Positions 1-44,935 of a stretch of 52,955 bases of DNA are shown here, in pieces. Each line of letters starts with the position of its first letter. Position 1 is the first letter of the stretch. The notes under the pieces were generated by a model. The model was not told the DNA's origin and ran no database searches. It saw only the letters and a program-made list of their open reading frames with translations. The stretch lies in assembly GCA_947473125.1 (NCBI GenBank), contig CANJDH010000021.1, forward strand, positions 1 to 52,955, read 5' to 3'. A program made the position numbers and the translations under genes. The DNA is from Burkholderiales bacterium (GTDB lineage: Bacteria; Pseudomonadota; Gammaproteobacteria; Burkholderiales; JAEUOS01).

Positions 1-1889
1 GCGGCAGCGCCGCCGCTGGCGCCCGGACGCAGCGGCGTGGGCGGCGCGGCGGCCGACCCTTCGACGCGCCAATTGACAACCTCGATGCGCTGGCCCTCAA
101 GATGCCCGCCAAAGCGCGCGGCATACGCAGCCTGGAAACTGGCTTCGATTTGCGCAAGACCCGCGGCCGCCAGGCGCGCCGGCAGCGCGGTTTCCACTTC
201 AAACCCCTGGCCGACATAGCGCATGTCGGCGGTGCGGCGAAACCGGATGTCACCGGCCGGAACGCCGGCTGACGCGAGTTCGGCGCGCAGCGCGTCTTCC
301 ATGCCGGCCACCAATGCCTCTATCGCGACCCAGTCGATCTGCGCCAACCGCGTGAAGCGGGTGCGTACCATGTCCACCTTCATCGGCGCCACCAGGAGGC
401 CGAAGGCCGAGAACACACCGGCGTTGGCTGGCACCAGCATCTCGGTGCAACCGGTGCGCCGCGCCACCTCACGCGCGTGGATCGGCCCGGCGCCGCCGAA
501 CGCGAGCAGCGTATAGCGGCGGATGTCGCGGCCGTTTTCCACTGCATGGATCTTGCCCGCAACCGCCATGTGCTCACACACGATGCGGTGGATGCCATTG
601 GCCGCCTCGATCACGCTCATGCCGAGCGGGTCCGCAACATGCGTCTTGATGGCCTGCTCGGCCAGTTCGGCGCGCAGGCGCACCGCGCCGCTCAGCGTGC
701 CGTCGGGGTCGAGGTAGCCCAGCAGCAGCGCCGCGTCGGTCACGGTGGGGCGTGTGCCGCCAAGGCCATAACAGGCCGGCCCCGGATTCGAGCCGGCGCT
801 ATGCGGGCCGACTTTGAGCAGGCCGGTGGCATCGACGTGGGCAATGCTGCCGCCGCCGGCGCCGATTTCGATCAGATCGACCGTCGGCAGGCGCACCGGC
901 AGGCCGCTGCCCTTCTTGAAGCGCTGCAGGCGCGCCGCCTCGAATTCAGTGGTGATGGATGGCTCGCCGTCCGAAACCAGGCAGGCCTTGGCCGTCGTGC
1001 CGCCCATGTCGAATGCGATCACATCGGGCAGTCCGGCGAGGCGTGCCGCGTGCGCCGCGCCCAAGGCGCCTGCAGCCGGGCCGGATTCGAGCATGCGAAT
1101 CGGCATGCGCTCGCCGAATTCGCGCGAGATCACGCCGCCGTTCGACTGCATGATGCGCAAGGTCGCGTTGATGCCGAGGGCTCGCAGGCCGTCTTCAATC
1201 TCGCCGAGGTAGCTGCCGACCATCGGCATCACATAGGCATTGAGCACGGTGGCGATGGTGCGCTCGTATTCGCGCATTTCACCCAACACTTCGGACGACA
1301 GTGACACCGCGATGTCCGGGGCAATCCGCGCGGCGATCGCCTTGACCCGTTGCTCGTGCGCCGGGTTGGTGAAGCTGTGCAGGAAGCACACCGCTATCGC
1401 GCGCACGCCGGCGGCTTGCAGCGTGCGCACCGCCTGCTCGATGTTAGCGTCGCTCGGCGCTTCGATCACGGCGCCCGATGCATCGACGCGCTCGTCCACT
1501 TCTACCCGCAGTTCGCGCGGAATCACCGGGTCCGGCCCCGGTGCGGTCAGGTCGTAAAGGTCGTAGCGCAGTTCACGCGCGATCTCGATCACGTCACGAA
1601 AGCCTGCCGTAGCGATCAGCCCGGTGCGCGCGCCCTTGCGCTCAATCACGAGGTTGGTGACGGCAGTGGTAGCGCCCGCAACCACGTCGTGCACCTGGCC
1701 CAGCGCGATGCCGTGCTCATGCAGGAGGCGCGTCAGCCCGGCGCAGATCGGCTTGACCACATGCGCCTGGTCGGTCAGCACCTTGGCGGTATAGACCCGG
1801 CCATCGCTGCCGAGCAGCACCAGGTCGGTGAAAGTGCCGCCAATGTCAAAGGCAAAACGGTAGCGAACGTCAGGATCGGTGGCGGCCAT
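1..1889 (-). CDS. Hydantoinase/oxoprolinase subunit A (HyuA-like), 3' end cut by window edge
   Basis: Reading the minus strand from the ATG at 1887-1889 gives 629 uninterrupted codons that run off the left edge without a stop. The N-terminus carries FDIGGTFTDLVLL at about residues 13-25, the phosphate-binding signature of the ASKHA-like hydantoinase A/oxoprolinase fold. A second glycine-rich motif, AFDMGGTTAKACLV, lies near residue 290, then GAGGGSIA and LLAFGGAGPIHA. These are the usual landmarks of HyuA, which hydrolyses cyclic amides such as N-methylhydantoin or 5-oxoproline at the expense of ATP, usually with a HyuB partner. HyuB would lie beyond the edge. HyuA starts 76 bp after the preA-like gene and is probably co-transcribed with it. 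The exact substrate cannot be read from the sequence. About 60 or more C-terminal residues appear to be missing. Confidence 0.9.
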   Translation of the reverse strand, partial: MAATDPDVRYRFAFDIGGTFTDLVLLGSDGRVYTAKVLTDQAHVVKPICAGLTRLLHEHGIALGQVHDVVAGATTAVTNLVIERKGARTGLIATAGFRDVIEIARELRYDLYDLTAPGPDPVIPRELRVEVDERVDASGAVIEAPSDANIEQAVRTLQAAGVRAIAVCFLHSFTNPAHEQRVKAIAARIAPDIAVSLSSEVLGEMREYERTIATVLNAYVMPMVGSYLGEIEDGLRALGINATLRIMQSNGGVISREFGERMPIRMLESGPAAGALGAAHAARLAGLPDVIAFDMGGTTAKACLVSDGEPSITTEFEAARLQRFKKGSGLPVRLPTVDLIEIGAGGGSIAHVDATGLLKVGPHSAGSNPGPACYGLGGTRPTVTDAALLLGYLDPDGTLSGAVRLRAELAEQAIKTHVADPLGMSVIEAANGIHRIVCEHMAVAGKIHAVENGRDIRRYTLLAFGGAGPIHAREVARRTGCTEMLVPANAGVFSAFGLLVAPMKVDMVRTRFTRLAQIDWVAIEALVAGMEDALRAELASAGVPAGDIRFRRTADMRYVGQGFEVETALPARLAAAGLAQIEASFQAAYAARFGGHLEGQRIEVVNWRVEGSAAAPPTPLRPGASGGAA

Positions 1890-20335: not shown

Positions 20336-20848
20336 ATGAAAGACTCCCTGCTGCGCCTGCTGGGTGCGCTGGCCGCCACCGCCTTTAGCCTCGCTCCAAT
20401 CGCTGCGTTGGCCCAGGGCACGCCAGGCACCGAAGCCCCGAGCGAATCGGCCACGGATCTTGGCGTGGCACGCGCCCTCGATGCCGTAATGGCCCGTGCC
20501 CTGAGCCTGCGTGGAACGCGCTATCGCGCCGGCGGGGCGTCGCCGGAAACCGGGTTTGACTGTTCCGGATTCGTTGGCTACCTGTATCGCGACATTCTTG
20601 GATTCCAGTTGCCACGCAGCGCACAGGAGATCTGGCGCTTCGGCAGAAAAGTCGAGCGCGAAGACCTGCGTCCCGGCGACCTGGTGTTCTACGACACGCT
20701 GCGACGCCCGTTCTCCCATGTCGGCATTTACCTTGGTGACAACCAGTTCGTGCATGCGCCGACGTCGGGCGGTTCGGTACGCGTGGTCAACATGAACGAA
20801 CGCTACTGGGCCGCACGCTGGAACGGTGCCAAACGGGTGGCCCCCTGA
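20336..20848 (+). CDS. NlpC/P60 family C40 peptidase, secreted
   Basis: A 170-residue protein with signal peptide MKDSLLRLLGALAATAFSLA and an NlpC/P60 domain from about residue 55. The catalytic Cys is in GFDCSGFVGYLYR, the His in SHVGIYLGDN, and the third polar residue is in VHAPTSGG. Such enzymes cut cell-wall stem peptides between D-Glu and diaminopimelate. The ATG at 20336 gives a proper signal peptide; the 25 codons readable upstream do not. The domain is compact with no SH3 or LysM module. A copy of the REP-like repeat begins at the stop codon. It diverges from the response regulator gene. Confidence 0.9.
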   Translation: MKDSLLRLLGALAATAFSLAPIAALAQGTPGTEAPSESATDLGVARALDAVMARALSLRGTRYRAGGASPETGFDCSGFVGYLYRDILGFQLPRSAQEIWRFGRKVEREDLRPGDLVFYDTLRRPFSHVGIYLGDNQFVHAPTSGGSVRVVNMNERYWAARWNGAKRVAP

Positions 20849-20876
20849 AACCCTTGGTGGGAGCGGATTTTAGGCC
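20847..20876 (+). repeat. REP-like repeat copy 1
   Basis: GAAACCCTTGGTGGGAGCGG, then ATTTTAGGCC, abuts the stop codon of the NlpC/P60 gene. It shares its first 19 bases almost exactly with copies at 41401 and 44235. The core GGTGGGAGCGGATTT resembles the GTGGGAGCGG half of Pseudomonas-type REP elements. Confidence 0.6.
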
Positions 20877-20909
20877 TTCCCTCGCCAGGATCCTTGCAGG
20901 ACAAGGCCC

Positions 20910-38682: not shown

Positions 38683-39510
38683 TCAGACCACGCACTGCGG
38701 ACAGCTCTTGCCAACCACGTAGTGTGGCGACCTGAGTTCTTCCGGCGCAACCACGGCCCGGCAGTTGAAGCATTCCGCATAACCGGCGGCCTCGAGTGCC
38801 GGGGTCAGGGCCACGCGCCTATCAAACACGAAGCAATCACCTTGATAATGGCTTCCACCAATGGTTTCAAAGTATTTCAGGATGCCGCCATCGAGCTGGA
38901 AGACATTGTCGAAGCCGCGCTCCTGCATGTACAGCACCGCCTTTTCGCAGCGGATGCCGCCGGTGCAGAAGGTGACAACGGTCTTGCCCCGGAGCATCGG
39001 CGCGAGCCTGTCAACCCGTTCCGGAAATTCCCCAAACGTGGTGATCTCCGGGTTGATTGCCCCCTCGAACGTACCAATGTCGATTTCAAAGGCGTTGCGC
39101 GTATCTACCATCACAACCTCGCGCCCGGCGTCGTCATGGCCGGCGTCGAGCCAGCGCTTGAGCTGCTGCGCCGCCACTGCCGGCGCGCGCCCGCCGATCG
39201 GCCGCACCTGCGGCTTTTTCATGGTGATGATCTCTTTCTTGAGCTTCACCAGCATGCGGTTGAACGGCTGCTCGCCGGACCAGCTTTCCTTGACCGCCAA
39301 ACCTGCGAAACGCGCATCTTCGCGCAAGCCGTCAAGCATGGCGTTGAGCGATTCGGGCAGACCGGCGAGAAACAGGTTGATGCCTTCCGGGGCGAGCAGC
39401 ACCGTGCCCTTGAGCCCTGCCGCACTACAGGCCGCGCGCAGGCGCTCGCGCAGGGCCAGCAGGTCGTCGAGCTCGACAAAGCGGTAGGCGGAAACATTGA
39501 GAAAGCGCAT
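38683..39510 (-). CDS. trhO: tRNA uridine(34) hydroxylase TrhO (rhodanese domain)
   Basis: A 275-residue protein (UPF0176) that hydroxylates U34 in some tRNAs. The N-terminal domain (RFLNVSAYRFVELDDL) is followed by a rhodanese domain with active-site Cys in VTFCTGGIRCEKA. VMVDTRNAFEIDIGTFEGAI is also typical. The C-terminus has CxxC pairs (CFNC, CPQC) that may bind zinc. The start is placed at MRFLNVSAYRFV; the 32 residues upstream overlap the divergent aldolase promoter region. It converges with the peroxidase gene and diverges from the class II aldolase gene with 61 bp between starts. Confidence 0.92.
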   Translation of the reverse strand: MRFLNVSAYRFVELDDLLALRERLRAACSAAGLKGTVLLAPEGINLFLAGLPESLNAMLDGLREDARFAGLAVKESWSGEQPFNRMLVKLKKEIITMKKPQVRPIGGRAPAVAAQQLKRWLDAGHDDAGREVVMVDTRNAFEIDIGTFEGAINPEITTFGEFPERVDRLAPMLRGKTVVTFCTGGIRCEKAVLYMQERGFDNVFQLDGGILKYFETIGGSHYQGDCFVFDRRVALTPALEAAGYAECFNCRAVVAPEELRSPHYVVGKSCPQCVV

Positions 39511-39571
39511 GCCCACGATTATAGAAGGGTGGATAATTCGACCCACCTTCCATTTGCCTGTGAGCACCAGC

Positions 39572-40417
39572 ATGACCCAGCCCGCCTTTCTCGCCGACAT
39601 CCGCAAGGGCTACCCCGAGCTCGACCCCGACAAGGATTACCCGCCGCTGCAACTGGCCTCGCTCAGGGGCAAGGTCAGCGCAGCCGAATGGGAGGCGCGC
39701 GTTGACTGCGCCTGCGCCTACCGGCTGGTAGCGCACTACGGCATGGACGACCTGATCTACAACCATATCTCGGCACGCATTCCCGGCACCGAGGAATACC
39801 TGCTCAATCCTTTCGGCCTGATGTACGAGGAAATCACTGCCTCCTCGCTGATCAAGGTCAACGTAGCGGGCAAGGTGTTGTGGGAGCCGGATTTTCCGGC
39901 GGGCCTGCCCTACCAGTTCAACCCCGCCGGCTTTGTGATCCACGGTGCGATCCACGAAGCCAAACCCGAGGTGGCGTGCATCATCCACACCCATTCACTG
40001 GCGAGCATGGCGATCTCCTCTCTGGAGAGCGGCGTGCTGCCGATGACGCAGACGTCGATGCGCTTCGACAAGATCGCCTATCACGACTACGAAGGCGTGG
40101 TGCTTGGCATGGAAGAACGCGACCGCATGCTGGGCAACATGGGCGACTGCGAAGTGCTGATGTTGCGCAACCACGGTGTGCTGGTGACCGGCAAAACGGT
40201 CGCGATGGCCTTTAACAACATTTATCGCATCGAACGTGCCTGCCGCTCGCAGCTGATGGCGATGGCGTGCAACAGCAAGCTGATTCTGCCGCCGCAGGAC
40301 GTGATCGAAAAAACCAACCACGCCTACCGGCCCGGCACACGTCGTCCCTATGGGGTGCTCGAGTGGCCGGCGATGCGCCGGCTGGCTGACCGACTCGACT
40401 CTTCGTACAAGCACTAG
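39572..40417 (+). CDS. Class II aldolase/adducin family protein
   Basis: A 281-residue protein of the fuculose-phosphate aldolase fold. Metal-ligand histidines can be read in IIHTHSLASMAI and LRNHGVLVTG; NHISARIPGTEEYLLNPFG and GFVIHGAIHEAKPEVACIIH are family landmarks. Members cleave or decarboxylate sugar phosphates and keto acids, and some lack aldolase activity. It heads a plus-strand catabolic run and is followed after 9 bp by a Bug-type binding-protein gene. The start at MTQPAFLADIRKGYPEL is chosen for the family length. Confidence 0.85.
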   Translation: MTQPAFLADIRKGYPELDPDKDYPPLQLASLRGKVSAAEWEARVDCACAYRLVAHYGMDDLIYNHISARIPGTEEYLLNPFGLMYEEITASSLIKVNVAGKVLWEPDFPAGLPYQFNPAGFVIHGAIHEAKPEVACIIHTHSLASMAISSLESGVLPMTQTSMRFDKIAYHDYEGVVLGMEERDRMLGNMGDCEVLMLRNHGVLVTGKTVAMAFNNIYRIERACRSQLMAMACNSKLILPPQDVIEKTNHAYRPGTRRPYGVLEWPAMRRLADRLDSSYKH

Positions 40418-40426
40418 GGCGGAGCC

Positions 40427-41392
40427 GTGCATCGTCTAGTGGCAGCCATCATACTGCTGGCAGGCTGGGCAAGCGCTAGCGCACAGGGCCAGTGGCCGGT
40501 GCGCGAAGTGAAGATCGTGATCGGCTTTTCCGCCGGCGGTACCACCGACATCATCACTCGCAGCCTGGCACCCGAGCTCACCAAACTGTGGGGCCAGGCC
40601 ATCGTGATCGAAAACCGCACCGGGGCAGGCGGCAACATCGGCGCTGATCTGGTCGCCAAGGCCAGGCCCGACGGCTACACTCTGTTCATGGGGTCAGTGG
40701 GACCGCTCGCGGTCAACGCCTCGCTGTACAAGGCGATGCCCTACGACAATCTCAAGGACCTGCAGCCGATCTCGCTGGTAGCCGACGTACCCAACATGCT
40801 GGTGTTCAATCCGCGCACTCTGCCGGCCGCCAATTTCAGGGAGTTCATGGGCCTGTTGAAGGCCAGCCCCGGTAAATACTTTTATGGCTCCACCGGCAGC
40901 GGCACCTCGTCGCACCTGTCGGGCGAGTTGCTGCAATTGCAGTCTGGCGTAGCGATCACCCACGTGCCCTACAAGGGCGCGGTGGCGCTCAACGACGTGC
41001 TGGCCGGCGAGTCGGTGCACTTCATGTTCGCGACGATTCCTTCTGCCATCCAGCATGTGCGCGCCGGCAAACTGCGCGCGATTGCCGTCACCAGCCTGAA
41101 ACGCTCGGCCAGCGTGCCCGATGTGCCGACCATCGCCGAATCGGGTATCCCTGGTTTTGATGCGTCCTCGTGGTTCGGCCTGGTCGGCCCGGCCGGCATG
41201 CCGCGCGACATCGCCAACAAGATCGCCGCCGACATCGCGCGCGTCTTGAAGCAACCCGAAATGCACGAGCGCTTCGTTGCGCAAGGGTCCGACCCGGTTG
41301 GCTCGACGCCGGAAGAGTTCGCCCAGTACATACGCAGTGAAACCGCAAAATGGGCGCGCCTGGTCAAGGCCTCGGGCGCCAAGGCCGAATAG
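40427..41392 (+). CDS. Bug-family (TctC) extracytoplasmic solute receptor, first copy
   Basis: A 321-residue periplasmic binding protein with a short signal (HRLVAAIILLAGWASASA) and GTG start (GGCGGAG upstream). VIGFSAGGTTDIITRSLAPEL and IVIENRTGAGGNIGADLVAK are the hallmark Bug segments; the carboxylate-binding loop near residue 35 precedes DIITR. Bug proteins bind carboxylates for the TctAB permease, but TctA and TctB genes are not present. It is translated almost directly after the aldolase-like gene. The MmgE/PrpD gene follows after a REP-like repeat. Confidence 0.9.
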   Translation: MHRLVAAIILLAGWASASAQGQWPVREVKIVIGFSAGGTTDIITRSLAPELTKLWGQAIVIENRTGAGGNIGADLVAKARPDGYTLFMGSVGPLAVNASLYKAMPYDNLKDLQPISLVADVPNMLVFNPRTLPAANFREFMGLLKASPGKYFYGSTGSGTSSHLSGELLQLQSGVAITHVPYKGAVALNDVLAGESVHFMFATIPSAIQHVRAGKLRAIAVTSLKRSASVPDVPTIAESGIPGFDASSWFGLVGPAGMPRDIANKIAADIARVLKQPEMHERFVAQGSDPVGSTPEEFAQYIRSETAKWARLVKASGAKAE

Positions 41393-41400
41393 CGCACTTC

Positions 41401-41430
41401 AAAACCCTTGGTGGGAGCGCCTCTCCGGCC
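41401..41430 (+). repeat. REP-like repeat copy 2
   Basis: AAAACCCTTGGTGGGAGCGC, then CTCTCCGGCC, lies 8 bp after the first Bug gene. It is nearly identical over 30 bases to the copy at 44235-44266 inside a coding region. Confidence 0.6.
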
Positions 41431-41471
41431 CATTCCTCTCTGAAAAACCTTGAAATCGAAAAGCCTTCATC

Positions 41472-42821
41472 ATGTACGTCGTCGAAACCTTCGCCCAGTG
41501 GGCTGTCGCCTACCGTCCGCAAGCCATCACCCCCGAGGTGGCGCACCACGCCAAGCGCGCCATCATCGACTGGACTGCCGCGCTCTACCCGGGTGCCGTG
41601 CTGGCGCCCGCCACGATGTTTGAGACCGCGCTCGCCGAAGAGATGGATCACGGCAAGGCACGCCTCGCACTCGGCCGCACGGCCACCACTCGCGCTGCCG
41701 CCTTCATCAACGGCAGCGCCGCACACACGGCGGAAGTCGACGACATCTTTCGCGACGGCATTTATCACCCGGGCGCACCGACCATCGCCGCCGCATTGGC
41801 GCTGGCGCAGACCGTCGGCGCAAGCGGCGCCGACTTGATGCGCGCGGTCATCGTCGGCTACGAGATCTCGACGCGCATCGGCGCAAGCATGGGCCGTGAG
41901 CATTACAAATACTTCCACAACACCGGCACCATCGGCTGCTTCGGCGCTGCCGCTGCTGCGGCCGAACTGCTCAAGCTCGATGCACACCAATTCGCCAACG
42001 CGCTCGCCACTGTCGCCACCTTCTCGGCCGCCTTGCAACAGGCGTTCCGCATGGATTCGCACTCCAAGCCGCTGCACGCTGGGCGTGCTGCCGAAGCCGG
42101 CGTTACCGCTGCGCTCGGCGCCCAACAAGGCCTGCAGGGTTCGCTGGACGTGCTTGAAGGCGACGCCGGCTACGGCAAGGCACTGCGCCACGGCAACACC
42201 GCGCCCGACTGGGCCGCTGCCGTCGCCACGCTGGGCCGCGACTTCCGCATCAACCGCATGACGTTCAAGAATCACGCCTGCTGCGGCCATTCGTTCGCGG
42301 CCATCGACGGCGCGCAGCATCTCTACAAGAAGCTCGGCGTCAGCCCCGAACAGATCAAGCGAATTCACCTCGGCGCCTACCGCGCCACGCTCGACGTCGC
42401 CGGCTACGATCAGCCCCACACCCCCGCCGAGGCACGCTTTTCGGTCAAGTACTGTGTCGCCACCGCACTCACCCATGGCAACGTACGTCTCGCGGCGTTC
42501 GAACCGGACCGTATCGAAAACTCGGCGACGCGCACGCTGATGGCGAAGATCGAGCTCACGCTCGACCCGGAACTCGACGCCGCGTTCCCGAAGCAGCGCG
42601 CCGCACGCGTGACCTTCGAGACCACCGACGGCCGCAGCGAAACCTGGCTGCAGCCGACACGCAAGGGCGACCCTGACGCGCCGCTCACCGACACCGACCT
42701 CGAAGACAAATTTCTCGAATTGGTGGTGCCGGTGCTGGGCGACGCGCGCAGCAAGGCGTTGCTCGCGCAGCTCTGGGCGCTGGAGCAGCAAGTCGACCTC
42801 GGCACCTTGTGCAGCCGATAA
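41472..42821 (+). CDS. MmgE/PrpD family protein
   Basis: A 449-residue protein of the MmgE/PrpD (2-methylcitrate dehydratase-like) superfamily. Landmarks are INGSAAHTAEVDDIFRDGIY near residue 77, PTIAAALALAQ, HNTGTIGCFGAAAAAAELL near 153 and KPLHAGRAAEAGV near 200, followed by NHACCGHSF. The superfamily includes dehydratases and the epimerase or isomerase-like proteins that act on citrate-like or itaconate-related acids. It lies between Bug and acyl-CoA synthetase genes, 2 bp before the latter. The true substrate is unknown. Confidence 0.87.
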   Translation: MYVVETFAQWAVAYRPQAITPEVAHHAKRAIIDWTAALYPGAVLAPATMFETALAEEMDHGKARLALGRTATTRAAAFINGSAAHTAEVDDIFRDGIYHPGAPTIAAALALAQTVGASGADLMRAVIVGYEISTRIGASMGREHYKYFHNTGTIGCFGAAAAAAELLKLDAHQFANALATVATFSAALQQAFRMDSHSKPLHAGRAAEAGVTAALGAQQGLQGSLDVLEGDAGYGKALRHGNTAPDWAAAVATLGRDFRINRMTFKNHACCGHSFAAIDGAQHLYKKLGVSPEQIKRIHLGAYRATLDVAGYDQPHTPAEARFSVKYCVATALTHGNVRLAAFEPDRIENSATRTLMAKIELTLDPELDAAFPKQRAARVTFETTDGRSETWLQPTRKGDPDAPLTDTDLEDKFLELVVPVLGDARSKALLAQLWALEQQVDLGTLCSR

Positions 42822-42823
42822 GC

Positions 42824-44935
42824 ATGGCGCCCGGCATCTCGCGCATTTCTCTTGGTCAGGCGCTGTTCGCGCCGCGCACCATTGCCCTGGTCGGCGCCTC
42901 CGGCGACATCACCAAGAACACCGCGCGCCCGCAGCGTTACCTCAAAAAGCACGGCTACACCGGTGCCATCGTGCCGATCAACCCGACGCGCACCGAGATC
43001 CTCGGAGAGCCGGCCTACCCAACCGTCGCTGCGGCCCAGGCTGCACTGGCCGCACGCGGCATTGCCCCGATCGAGCATGCCTATGTGATGGCGCCGGGCG
43101 ACGCGGTCGAGCGCGCCGTCGAAGACTGCGGTGCCTGCGGCATTCCGGTGGTGTCGATTTTCAGCGACGGTTTCTCCGAGGTCGGCTCGGAAGGGGCGGC
43201 GCGCCAGCAGCGCCTGGCCGCGCGCGCCCGTGCCCTCGGCGTGCGCCTGCTCGGGCCCAACAGCATGGGCGTGGTCGACATCCCCAATCACATCTCGATC
43301 ACCGTCAACGCGATTCTCGAAGCCGACGCATTGATCCCCGGCAGCACCAGCGTGGTCTCGCAAAGCGGCACCATGCTCGGCACCCTGATGTCGCGCGGCG
43401 CGGCACGCGGCATCGGCTTTGCCAAGCTGGTGTCGGTGGGCAACGAAGCCGACCTCGGCGTCGGCGAAATCGTCGACCTGCTGGTCGATGACCCGGACAC
43501 CCGCGTGATCACGCTGTTCCTCGAAACCGTGCGCGATGCTGAACGCCTTGCCGCCGCTGCGCGCCGCGCCCACGCCGCCGGCAAGCCGGTGGTGGCGTTC
43601 AAACTCGGCCGCTCGTCGCTCGGCGAAGCGCTCGCCAAGTCGCACACCGGCGCAATGGCCGGCACCGACGCGGCGGTAAACGCCTGGCTGCGCGACTGCG
43701 GCATCCTGCGCGTCGACATGCTCGAAACCCTGATCGAGATTGCGCCGCTGCTGGCGGGGCGCGCGCCGGTATCTGTGCAAAGAAAACCGCGCGTGGCGGT
43801 CGTCACCACGACGGGCGGCGGCGCCGCCAGCGTAGTCGATCGTCTTGGGGTACTGGGCATGGATGCCATGGCGCCCTCGCCGGCCTTGCAACAGGAACTG
43901 GCCGGGCACGGCGTGCGCGTTTCGGACTCACCGATTGTCGACCTCACCATGGCAAGCTCCGCGCAGCGCTACCGTGCCGTGCTCGCATCACTGCTGGCTT
44001 CGCCCGATTGCGATGCGGTGCTCGCCGTCGTTGGGTCGTCCGCGCAGTTTCATCCCGACTTCGCGGTGCAGCCAATCCTCGACACACCGTGGAGCCCCAA
44101 GCCGCTGGCGGCCTTCCTCACACCGCACGCCGAGCGCTCGCTGGCCCTCCTGGCCGACAAGGGCATTGCCGCGTTCCGCACACCAGAAGCCTGCGCCGAT
44201 GCGCTGGCGACCTTTTTTCAATGGACACCTCCCCGAAAACCCTTGGTGGAAGCGCCTATCGAGGCCATCATGCCGGAGAAGGGCGCCCCGCTTGACGAAG
44301 CGGCCGCCCTGCATTTGTTTTCTTCACTCGGTGTGCCGGTGGTGGCGTCGGCGATTGCGCTCGGGCCCGACTACGCGCACGACATTCCGTATCCGCTGGT
44401 GGTCAAGGTGCGCTCGGCAGATATCCCGCACAAGACCGAAGCGGGCGGTGTGCTGATCGGCATCGGCAGCCGCGTCGAGTTTCGCCAGCGCGTGCCGATG
44501 ATGCTGGCCGCGGTACGGCGCGCCCTGCCGCAGGCGCGCATCGACGGCGTGCTGGTGCAGCGCATGGAAGACGGACTCACCGAAGTGATCGTCGGCTACC
44601 GCCACGACCCGATGGTGGGGCCGGTGGTGATGGTCGGCATGGGCGGCATCCTCGCCGAGCTGTATCACGATATGGCGCTGCGCATGGCTCCGGTGAGCGC
44701 GGATGAGGCCACGGCGATGCTCGGCGAAGTGAAGGGATTGGCGGTGGTGCGCGGCTTTCGCAACCTGCCGCAGGGCGATCTGCACGCATTGGCCGAAACG
44801 ATCGCAGCGTTCTCGCGTCTGGCGCTGCTGCCCGGCCAGTCGGTTCTGGAGGCCGAGATCAACCCGATGATCATCAAGAGCGATGGCGTGGTGGCGGTCG
44901 ATGGCCTCATCATCCTGCGGGAGGGTGCACCGTGA
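42824..44935 (+). CDS. ADP-forming acyl-CoA synthetase (acetate-CoA ligase family)
   Basis: A 703-residue fusion of CoA-binding, succinyl-CoA-ligase-like and ATP-grasp modules. The CoA-binding domain opens TIALVGASGDITKN, the phospho-histidine is His274 in KSHTGAMAGTDAA, and the C-terminal ATP-grasp shows PHKTEAGGVLIGIG and VQRMEDGLTEVIVG. Such enzymes make acyl-CoA from acid, ATP and CoA, giving ADP. The start at MAPGISRIS is 2 bp after the MmgE/PrpD stop. A copy of the REP-like repeat (44235-44266) lies in frame in the linker between the ligase and ATP-grasp modules. The downstream Bug gene overlaps it by 4 bp (GTGA). Confidence 0.9.
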   Translation: MAPGISRISLGQALFAPRTIALVGASGDITKNTARPQRYLKKHGYTGAIVPINPTRTEILGEPAYPTVAAAQAALAARGIAPIEHAYVMAPGDAVERAVEDCGACGIPVVSIFSDGFSEVGSEGAARQQRLAARARALGVRLLGPNSMGVVDIPNHISITVNAILEADALIPGSTSVVSQSGTMLGTLMSRGAARGIGFAKLVSVGNEADLGVGEIVDLLVDDPDTRVITLFLETVRDAERLAAAARRAHAAGKPVVAFKLGRSSLGEALAKSHTGAMAGTDAAVNAWLRDCGILRVDMLETLIEIAPLLAGRAPVSVQRKPRVAVVTTTGGGAASVVDRLGVLGMDAMAPSPALQQELAGHGVRVSDSPIVDLTMASSAQRYRAVLASLLASPDCDAVLAVVGSSAQFHPDFAVQPILDTPWSPKPLAAFLTPHAERSLALLADKGIAAFRTPEACADALATFFQWTPPRKPLVEAPIEAIMPEKGAPLDEAAALHLFSSLGVPVVASAIALGPDYAHDIPYPLVVKVRSADIPHKTEAGGVLIGIGSRVEFRQRVPMMLAAVRRALPQARIDGVLVQRMEDGLTEVIVGYRHDPMVGPVVMVGMGGILAELYHDMALRMAPVSADEATAMLGEVKGLAVVRGFRNLPQGDLHALAETIAAFSRLALLPGQSVLEAEINPMIIKSDGVVAVDGLIILREGAP
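44235..44266 (+). repeat. REP-like repeat copy 3, inside the acyl-CoA synthetase gene
   Basis: GAAAACCCTTGGTGGAAGCG, then CCTATCGAGGCC, lies within the reading frame and encodes RKPLVEAPIEA, in the interdomain linker at about residues 471-481. It aligns with the copy at 41401-41430 with only three or so differences. Confidence 0.55.

Follow-up and report, generated by a model that had tools for sequence, protein, structure and literature searches.

A lineage-specific repeat of about 40 bp that may have overwritten, and not lengthened, the linker of an acyl-CoA synthetase

How a copy of a dispersed repeat comes to lie within the open reading frame of an enzyme is the question raised by an acyl-CoA synthetase gene of a Burkholderiales bacterium (GenBank assembly GCA_947473125.1). 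The window, i.e. the whole stretch of DNA that was analysed, is 52,955 nucleotides long (contig CANJDH010000021.1). The gene (42809-44935, + strand) is of the NDP-forming acyl-CoA synthetase type, with CoA_binding_2, Succ_CoA_lig and ATP-grasp_5 domains; its frame is open for 708 codons, from GTG 42809 or the alternative start ATG 42824 to 44935. The repeat copy at 44236-44268 (+) is in frame and is translated as RKPLVEAPIEA, residues R476-A486 of an interdomain linker, between the domain matches (NCBIfam, Pfam) to the alpha part (TIGR02717), which ends at residue 472, and to ATP-grasp_5, which starts at residue 490. It agrees at 28 of 33 bases with the intergenic copy at 41401-41433 (+), which lies 8 bases past the stop codon of an ORF (40427-41392) that we take to encode a Bug-type receptor. 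On a weight matrix derived from 97 copies not placed in genes by a strict frame test, the synthetase copy scores 35.7 bits; a codon-usage model of the whole genome gives expectations of 0.0067 matches of at least 24 bits and 0.0004 of at least 30 bits, which in effect rules out chance. The first-pass annotation had described the segment as a copy of a dispersed REP-like repeat that sits inside an open reading frame and encodes an interdomain linker, and this description is confirmed. Local spread from 41401 was considered as its source and rejected: at 28/33, that copy and one in L064 on another contig are equally near to the synthetase copy.

The annotation had also proposed that RKPLVEAPIEA was added between the two modules. 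We compared the synthetase with orthologues drawn from 60 genomes. Measured from W to F, the linker has 33 residues here and 34, 33 and 32 in the three orthologues nearest to it (66, 65 and 60% local identity), all from genomes of the same family that lack the exact core of the repeat; the anchored net length differences are -1, 0 and +1. As the linkers of the closest orthologues are equally long, no residues were added to that of the synthetase, and the proposal fails on this point. The synthetase is also 4-6 residues shorter than three more distant orthologues (48-52% identity), which again speaks against addition; over six orthologues the median length change is -2.5, and linker length drifts. 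Orthologues with the same linker residues, which the annotation had named as evidence against itself, were found as regards length and not as regards the residues, which differ (WTAPRQPVAGDPAPAGAVLP in L038, WTPPRKPLVEAPIEAIMP here). There is no evidence that the repeat was domesticated as a linker, as had been suggested: no gained function was found, and the linker sequence varies among orthologues. In our judgement there is about an even chance that the repeat, which is lineage-specific and about 40 bp long, entered the synthetase linker by replacing an equal length of existing DNA and was not added to it. The replaced tract is probably 44228-44270 or thereabouts, as judged from the family-wide trough in silent-site identity described below.

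In the genome as a whole (4,877,126 bases in 209 contigs; assembly 97.15% complete) 155 places lie within one mismatch of the 15-base core CCYTTGGTGGGAGCG, and the reversed core pattern has none. The exact core CCNTTGGTGGGAGCG occurs at 88 places and is absent from all 59 other genomes of the order, four of which belong to the same family. The consensus 19-mer gave three single matches in a collection of 84,980 species, from which the genome's own records were possibly left out, and the maximum weight-matrix score in 380 kb of relatives' DNA was 7.1 bits. The density is about one near-exact core per 31 kb; neisserial DNA uptake sequences are much denser. Contig C93 (L022-L025, L136) carries five exact cores in about 7 kb, far above the average. 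The unit is about 40 bp long, roughly GCCTGAAACC[C/G]TTGGTGGGAGCG[G/C]NTYTCAGGCC, with a conserved span from about -9 to +31 around the core in which AAACC.TTGGTGGGAGCG is strongest and the GCCTG and YTCAGGCC arms are weaker. Since copies were collected via the conserved core, part of its conservation stems from the collecting itself; this does not apply to A at -3 or T at +17, each conserved at 95%, and A at -2 and -1 was selected for in 21 places only.

The consensus arms GCCTGAAA and TTTCAGGC are complementary. A hairpin kept by pairing is nevertheless unsupported, as none of 13 arm pairs covaried beyond shuffles (z -1.8 to 1.5, 120 copies). A known RNA family is likewise unsupported, an Rfam search of five loci having given one sub-threshold match (E 0.46, 174 positions), which lies off the repeat. 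Between copies, linkage of the variable positions is weak (summed mutual information vs shuffles, z 5.5), the strongest pairs being mostly neighbours, and the highest pairwise identity among copies is 0.78, for a shuffle range of 0.70-0.81. The best partner agrees at 30-32 of 33 bases for 25 of 135 copies, compared with about 10 in shuffles, and such near-identical partners suggest that some copying has occurred. Of 111 copies, 6 have an inverted partner that is offset by 37-38 bp and scores at least 0 bits, and a few have a direct one, offset by 39-41 bp. Beside main-arm copies in L005, L063, L164 and L149 lies a second arm variant, AAACCGTTGGTGCAGGCGG or near it (GTACAGGCGG, GTGCAGGCCG), which is inverted in the first two loci and direct in the third. 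No strand bias by GC skew was found (mean -0.0036, se 0.0036, 131 copies).

There are at least 150 copies, and the figures for their location rest on 150 distinct hits of at least 18 bits among those listed. A simple gene caller places 105 of these outside genes and 45 inside, while the strict frame test places 28 inside, so the statement that REP-like elements seldom lie within genes holds poorly here. Copies outside genes adjoin gene 3' ends (median distances of 16 bp on one side and 21 bp on the other), and 32 intergenic copies lie between convergent genes vs 8 between divergent ones. The window has a further intergenic copy at 20847-20879 (+) and a second intragenic copy at 38836-38868 (-), which is in frame in a gene with UPF0176_N and Rhodanese domains (38683-39600, -) whose length is unchanged. 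This copy, which sits at a conserved FExxGGxHYxG motif, reads ETIGGSHYQGD, and its counterpart in L230 reads EEVGGAHYRGD. Two copies at predicted gene starts seem to be part of secretion signals: that at L078:1480-1550 (+), reading ALKPLVGATLAAISLCSGGFASA, precedes a periplasmic binding protein, and that at L139:987-1050 (+), reading HWKPLVGATLGMMVLAGC, is lipoprotein-like by eye.

We compared the lengths of the host proteins with those of their orthologues. The 45 intragenic copies correspond to 41 hosts (four copies are the second arms of pairs); five further frames called by the strict test (L071, L002, L073, L067 and L111) were dropped as probably spurious. Orthologues came from four genomes of the same family, to which four more of the order were added for the first 20 hosts, using at most the best six per host for the length comparison and four for the site-resemblance test described below; 32 hosts could be aligned, and 9 lacked a usable pair of flanking anchors. 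Eighteen of the 32 were unchanged in length, seventeen of these by their median (0 or -0.5) and the synthetase by its closest three orthologues, although five of the 32 hosts (L088, L001, L029, L030 and L164) had a single orthologue and some orthologues were weak, e.g. 36-42% in L153 and L152b. The unchanged hosts carry the Pfam domains UPF0176/rhodanese (in the window), IspD, Mur ligase, UreF, glycosyltransferase, fatty acid desaturase, LD-carboxypeptidase, gamma-glutamyltranspeptidase, TPP enzymes, MoCoBD and alpha/beta hydrolases. A conserved protein keeps its length by default, and zero change is informative only because the repeat sits there.

Eleven of the 32 hosts were longer, with medians of 4 to 15.5 residues, and include DNA polymerase I (L142) and a family-2 glycosyltransferase (L130, +14). 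Five of them (L029, L130, L142, L164 and L005) were longer by 12-15.5 residues, i.e. about one 40-bp unit, and paired copies were present in L029, L142 and L005 (inverted) and in L164 (direct). The inverted pair in DNA polymerase I, at about 995-1080 (+) of L142, lies between the 5'-3' and 3'-5' exonuclease domains, and at this place the protein exceeds four orthologues by 12-21 residues. The three remaining hosts had medians of +2, -2 and -11; L030, whose copy is at a gene end and which has one orthologue, is the sole host with a median below -2.5. In 9222 control windows from the same alignments 88% were unchanged, 4.8% were longer by 4 residues or more and 1.6% by 10 or more. Lengthening is thus rare in control windows, and the lengthened class is real too.

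Constant length could result either from replacement of a block or from growth of the motif by point mutation, and silent sites separate the two: block replacement erases the ancestral silent bases throughout the block, whereas growth by point mutation changes motif positions only. We used 17 unchanged genes, including the synthetase and leaving out L152b, and only orthologues with zero length change. Silent-site identity was 0.45-0.54 outside the repeat and 0.15-0.39 from about -12 to +30, a trough about 40 bp wide over the repeat, where composition alone would give 0.30. The mean over -6 to +26 was 0.296, compared with 0.551 (sd 0.037) in random windows from these same 17 genes, none of 5000 being as low. 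At columns that the motif fixes weakly (<0.45 bits) identity was 0.19 (bootstrap 0.10-0.30) vs 0.52 in the flanks, from 83 third-position cells, which is few; controls with the reversed or column-shuffled motif, which are weaker matches (-7 to -19 bits), gave 0.49-0.60 at matching columns. Silent A+T was 0.37 in the element vs 0.21 in the flanks. Because weakly fixed columns lose identity too and the trough extends over the block, whole-block replacement is favoured by these alignments. One of the 17 genes, the LD-carboxypeptidase gene L128, showed no trough (0.36 vs 0.36), and its orthologues are already near the motif (-15 to +1 bits). The synthetase alone gave 0.20 vs 0.42, from 10 cells and one orthologue. 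Codon position 2 was equivocal, bases disfavoured by the motif matching orthologues at 0.783 vs 0.781 in the flanks; this agreement could reflect native bases that were kept or selection on the protein. No empty site was seen directly because the relatives are distant (flank silent identity about 0.5).

In 18 genes, L152b included, the orthologous sites were more repeat-like than other in-phase positions (median percentiles 0.54-0.999, KS p 3.5e-8). The resemblance was at the amino-acid level, with an excess of 2.17 bits per codon (z 14.9), and was not detectable in synonymous choice in the same 18 genes (0.07 bits, z 0.9). A filter by protein tolerance would therefore fit better than pairing by DNA homology; homology-guided conversion was rejected, as without a synonymous-site excess there is no sign that DNA homology is needed. 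The synthetase site is not especially similar to the repeat in its orthologue (percentile 0.54, one orthologue), which is what one would expect of a linker that tolerates change.

One-for-one replacement of about 40 bp seems to be the usual event, with insertion the minority. A wider reading, which we hold tentatively and at somewhat less than even confidence, is that overwriting is the main way in which this bacterial repeat spreads: about 40 bp of unrelated DNA, the codons of core enzymes included, would be overwritten base for base, and length would not change. The whole tract would be written in one step. The most likely route would be for a short single strand of the repeat to be taken in at a replication gap and then copied; this would give equal-length replacement, or addition when the strand loops out. 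Purifying selection would then keep only those copies with a tolerated translation, e.g. KPLVGA or ETVGGS, depending on the frame. This process, or else ordinary transposition, may in a minority of genes add a unit of about 12-16 residues. Two candidate enzymes were considered, and neither is supported. The genome has one Y1_Tnp gene (L175:1159-1866, -; NF047646 score 64 bits, below the cut-off of 80), whose 3,336-bp locus contains no repeat copy (best score -7.3 bits); counterparts occur in 13 of 20 relatives, including all four same-family genomes without the core, so that a link to this transposase is unsupported. Writing by a retroelement was set aside as no reverse transcriptase (RVT_1) was found in the genome; 3 of 14 controls were positive.

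The main rival to replacement is that the motif grows in place by point mutation under drive or selection for a DNA signal, e.g. a DNA uptake sequence or a site for a chromosome-organising protein, with coding copies arising where the protein allows; we regard this as possible but doubtful. It would account for the lack of length change in most alignable hosts, for the weak linkage between variable positions (mostly neighbours) and a top identity within the shuffle range, for a core that is stronger than its flanks (in part built in by the way copies were collected) and for the missing hairpin covariation. Neisserial uptake sequences likewise lie in place in genes, although the paper that we cite for them argues for an origin by recombination (PMC2397512). 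However, ComEC (PF03772) had no match in this 97.15%-complete genome, whereas 10 of 14 control genomes were positive, which makes uptake sequences unlikely; the copies are sparse; the weakly fixed silent columns within the tract lost identity too; and the number of copies with a best partner at 30-32/33 exceeds that in shuffles. Chance resemblance of ordinary codons to the repeat would at most explain why the orthologous proteins at the 18 tested sites tend toward its translation, and is negligible given the expectation of 0.0004 matches of at least 30 bits per genome, the lack of the exact core in all 59 relatives and the AT-ending codons in the tract.

Insertion of a REP-like mobile element that added linker residues, as Rickettsia palindromic elements do and as the first-pass annotation had it, is unlikely for the synthetase copy. 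The 11 longer hosts, far more than the 4.8% of control windows would lead one to expect, and the gain of about one unit in five of them do point to insertion in those genes, although for L029 and L164 the lengthening rests on one orthologue each, and the position of intergenic copies near gene 3' ends and between convergent genes is as in REPs (PMC3733652). However, length was added neither in the synthetase, where the three closest orthologues contradict it, nor in 17 other hosts, and the unchanged hosts include conserved segments of the Mur ligase, TPP enzyme, UPF0176 and gamma-glutamyltranspeptidase genes. An insertion followed by compensating loss of neighbouring residues could restore length in variable linkers such as that of the synthetase (32-34 residues), but is very improbable: the median is 0 or -0.5 in 17 further hosts, many of them in gapless conserved segments, only L030 falls below -2.5, and copies of the same length lie in segments conserved across families (L145, L155).

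The repeat is a REP-like family that lacks two of the REP features tested. According to a survey of REPs (PMC3733652), these adjoin gene 3' ends, favour convergent genes and are in some cases intragenic, DNA polymerase I being among the carriers, as it is here. The family resembles them further in its unit of 20-40 bp, high copy number, mostly extragenic location (105/150), some pairs and copies in ORFs (PMC3733652). Unlike in REPs, its complementary consensus arms do not covary, no RAYT-type gene flanked by repeats was found (the sole Y1 transposase gene has no adjoining copies) and 18 of 32 alignable hosts keep their length. By eye the consensus has no exact GTAG or CGTC tag, the core having GTGG, one base from GTAG. 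REPINs are described as REP doublets that form hairpins (PMC3116915), and this family too has inverted pairs, always 37-38 bp apart, but singlets dominate. Rickettsia palindromic elements, described in a review as insertions of about 150 bp that form translational fusions (PMC10969869), share with this family in-frame copies in unrelated protein genes (28/150 or 45/150 here); the difference is that lengthening is absent in the synthetase and that hosts divide into 18 unchanged, 11 longer and 3 other. Neisserial uptake sequences measure about 10 bases and are linked to natural transformation (PMC2397512), whereas this repeat is about 40 bp and its genome gave no ComEC. In the coding palindromes of Nematomorpha mitochondria (PMC6649704), as here, repeat sequence and protein function share the same codons; those are long perfect inverted repeats in mitochondrial genes and not a dispersed bacterial family.

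Mobile repeats in the REP, REPIN and Rickettsia palindromic element literature cited here are described as adding DNA, and the mode of entry into genes seen in this family is unusual and probably one of replacing. A limited search of the literature on overwriting repeats and gene conversion found no precedent, and replacement may already have been reported. If true, a repeat that replaces would give selfish sequence another way into proteins, free of the constraints of frameshift and length. Such a repeat could enter genes in which insertions are lethal, and would be missed by searches for alignment gaps. It would also serve as a warning that silent-site divergence over a short tract may stem from a repeat and not from relaxed selection.
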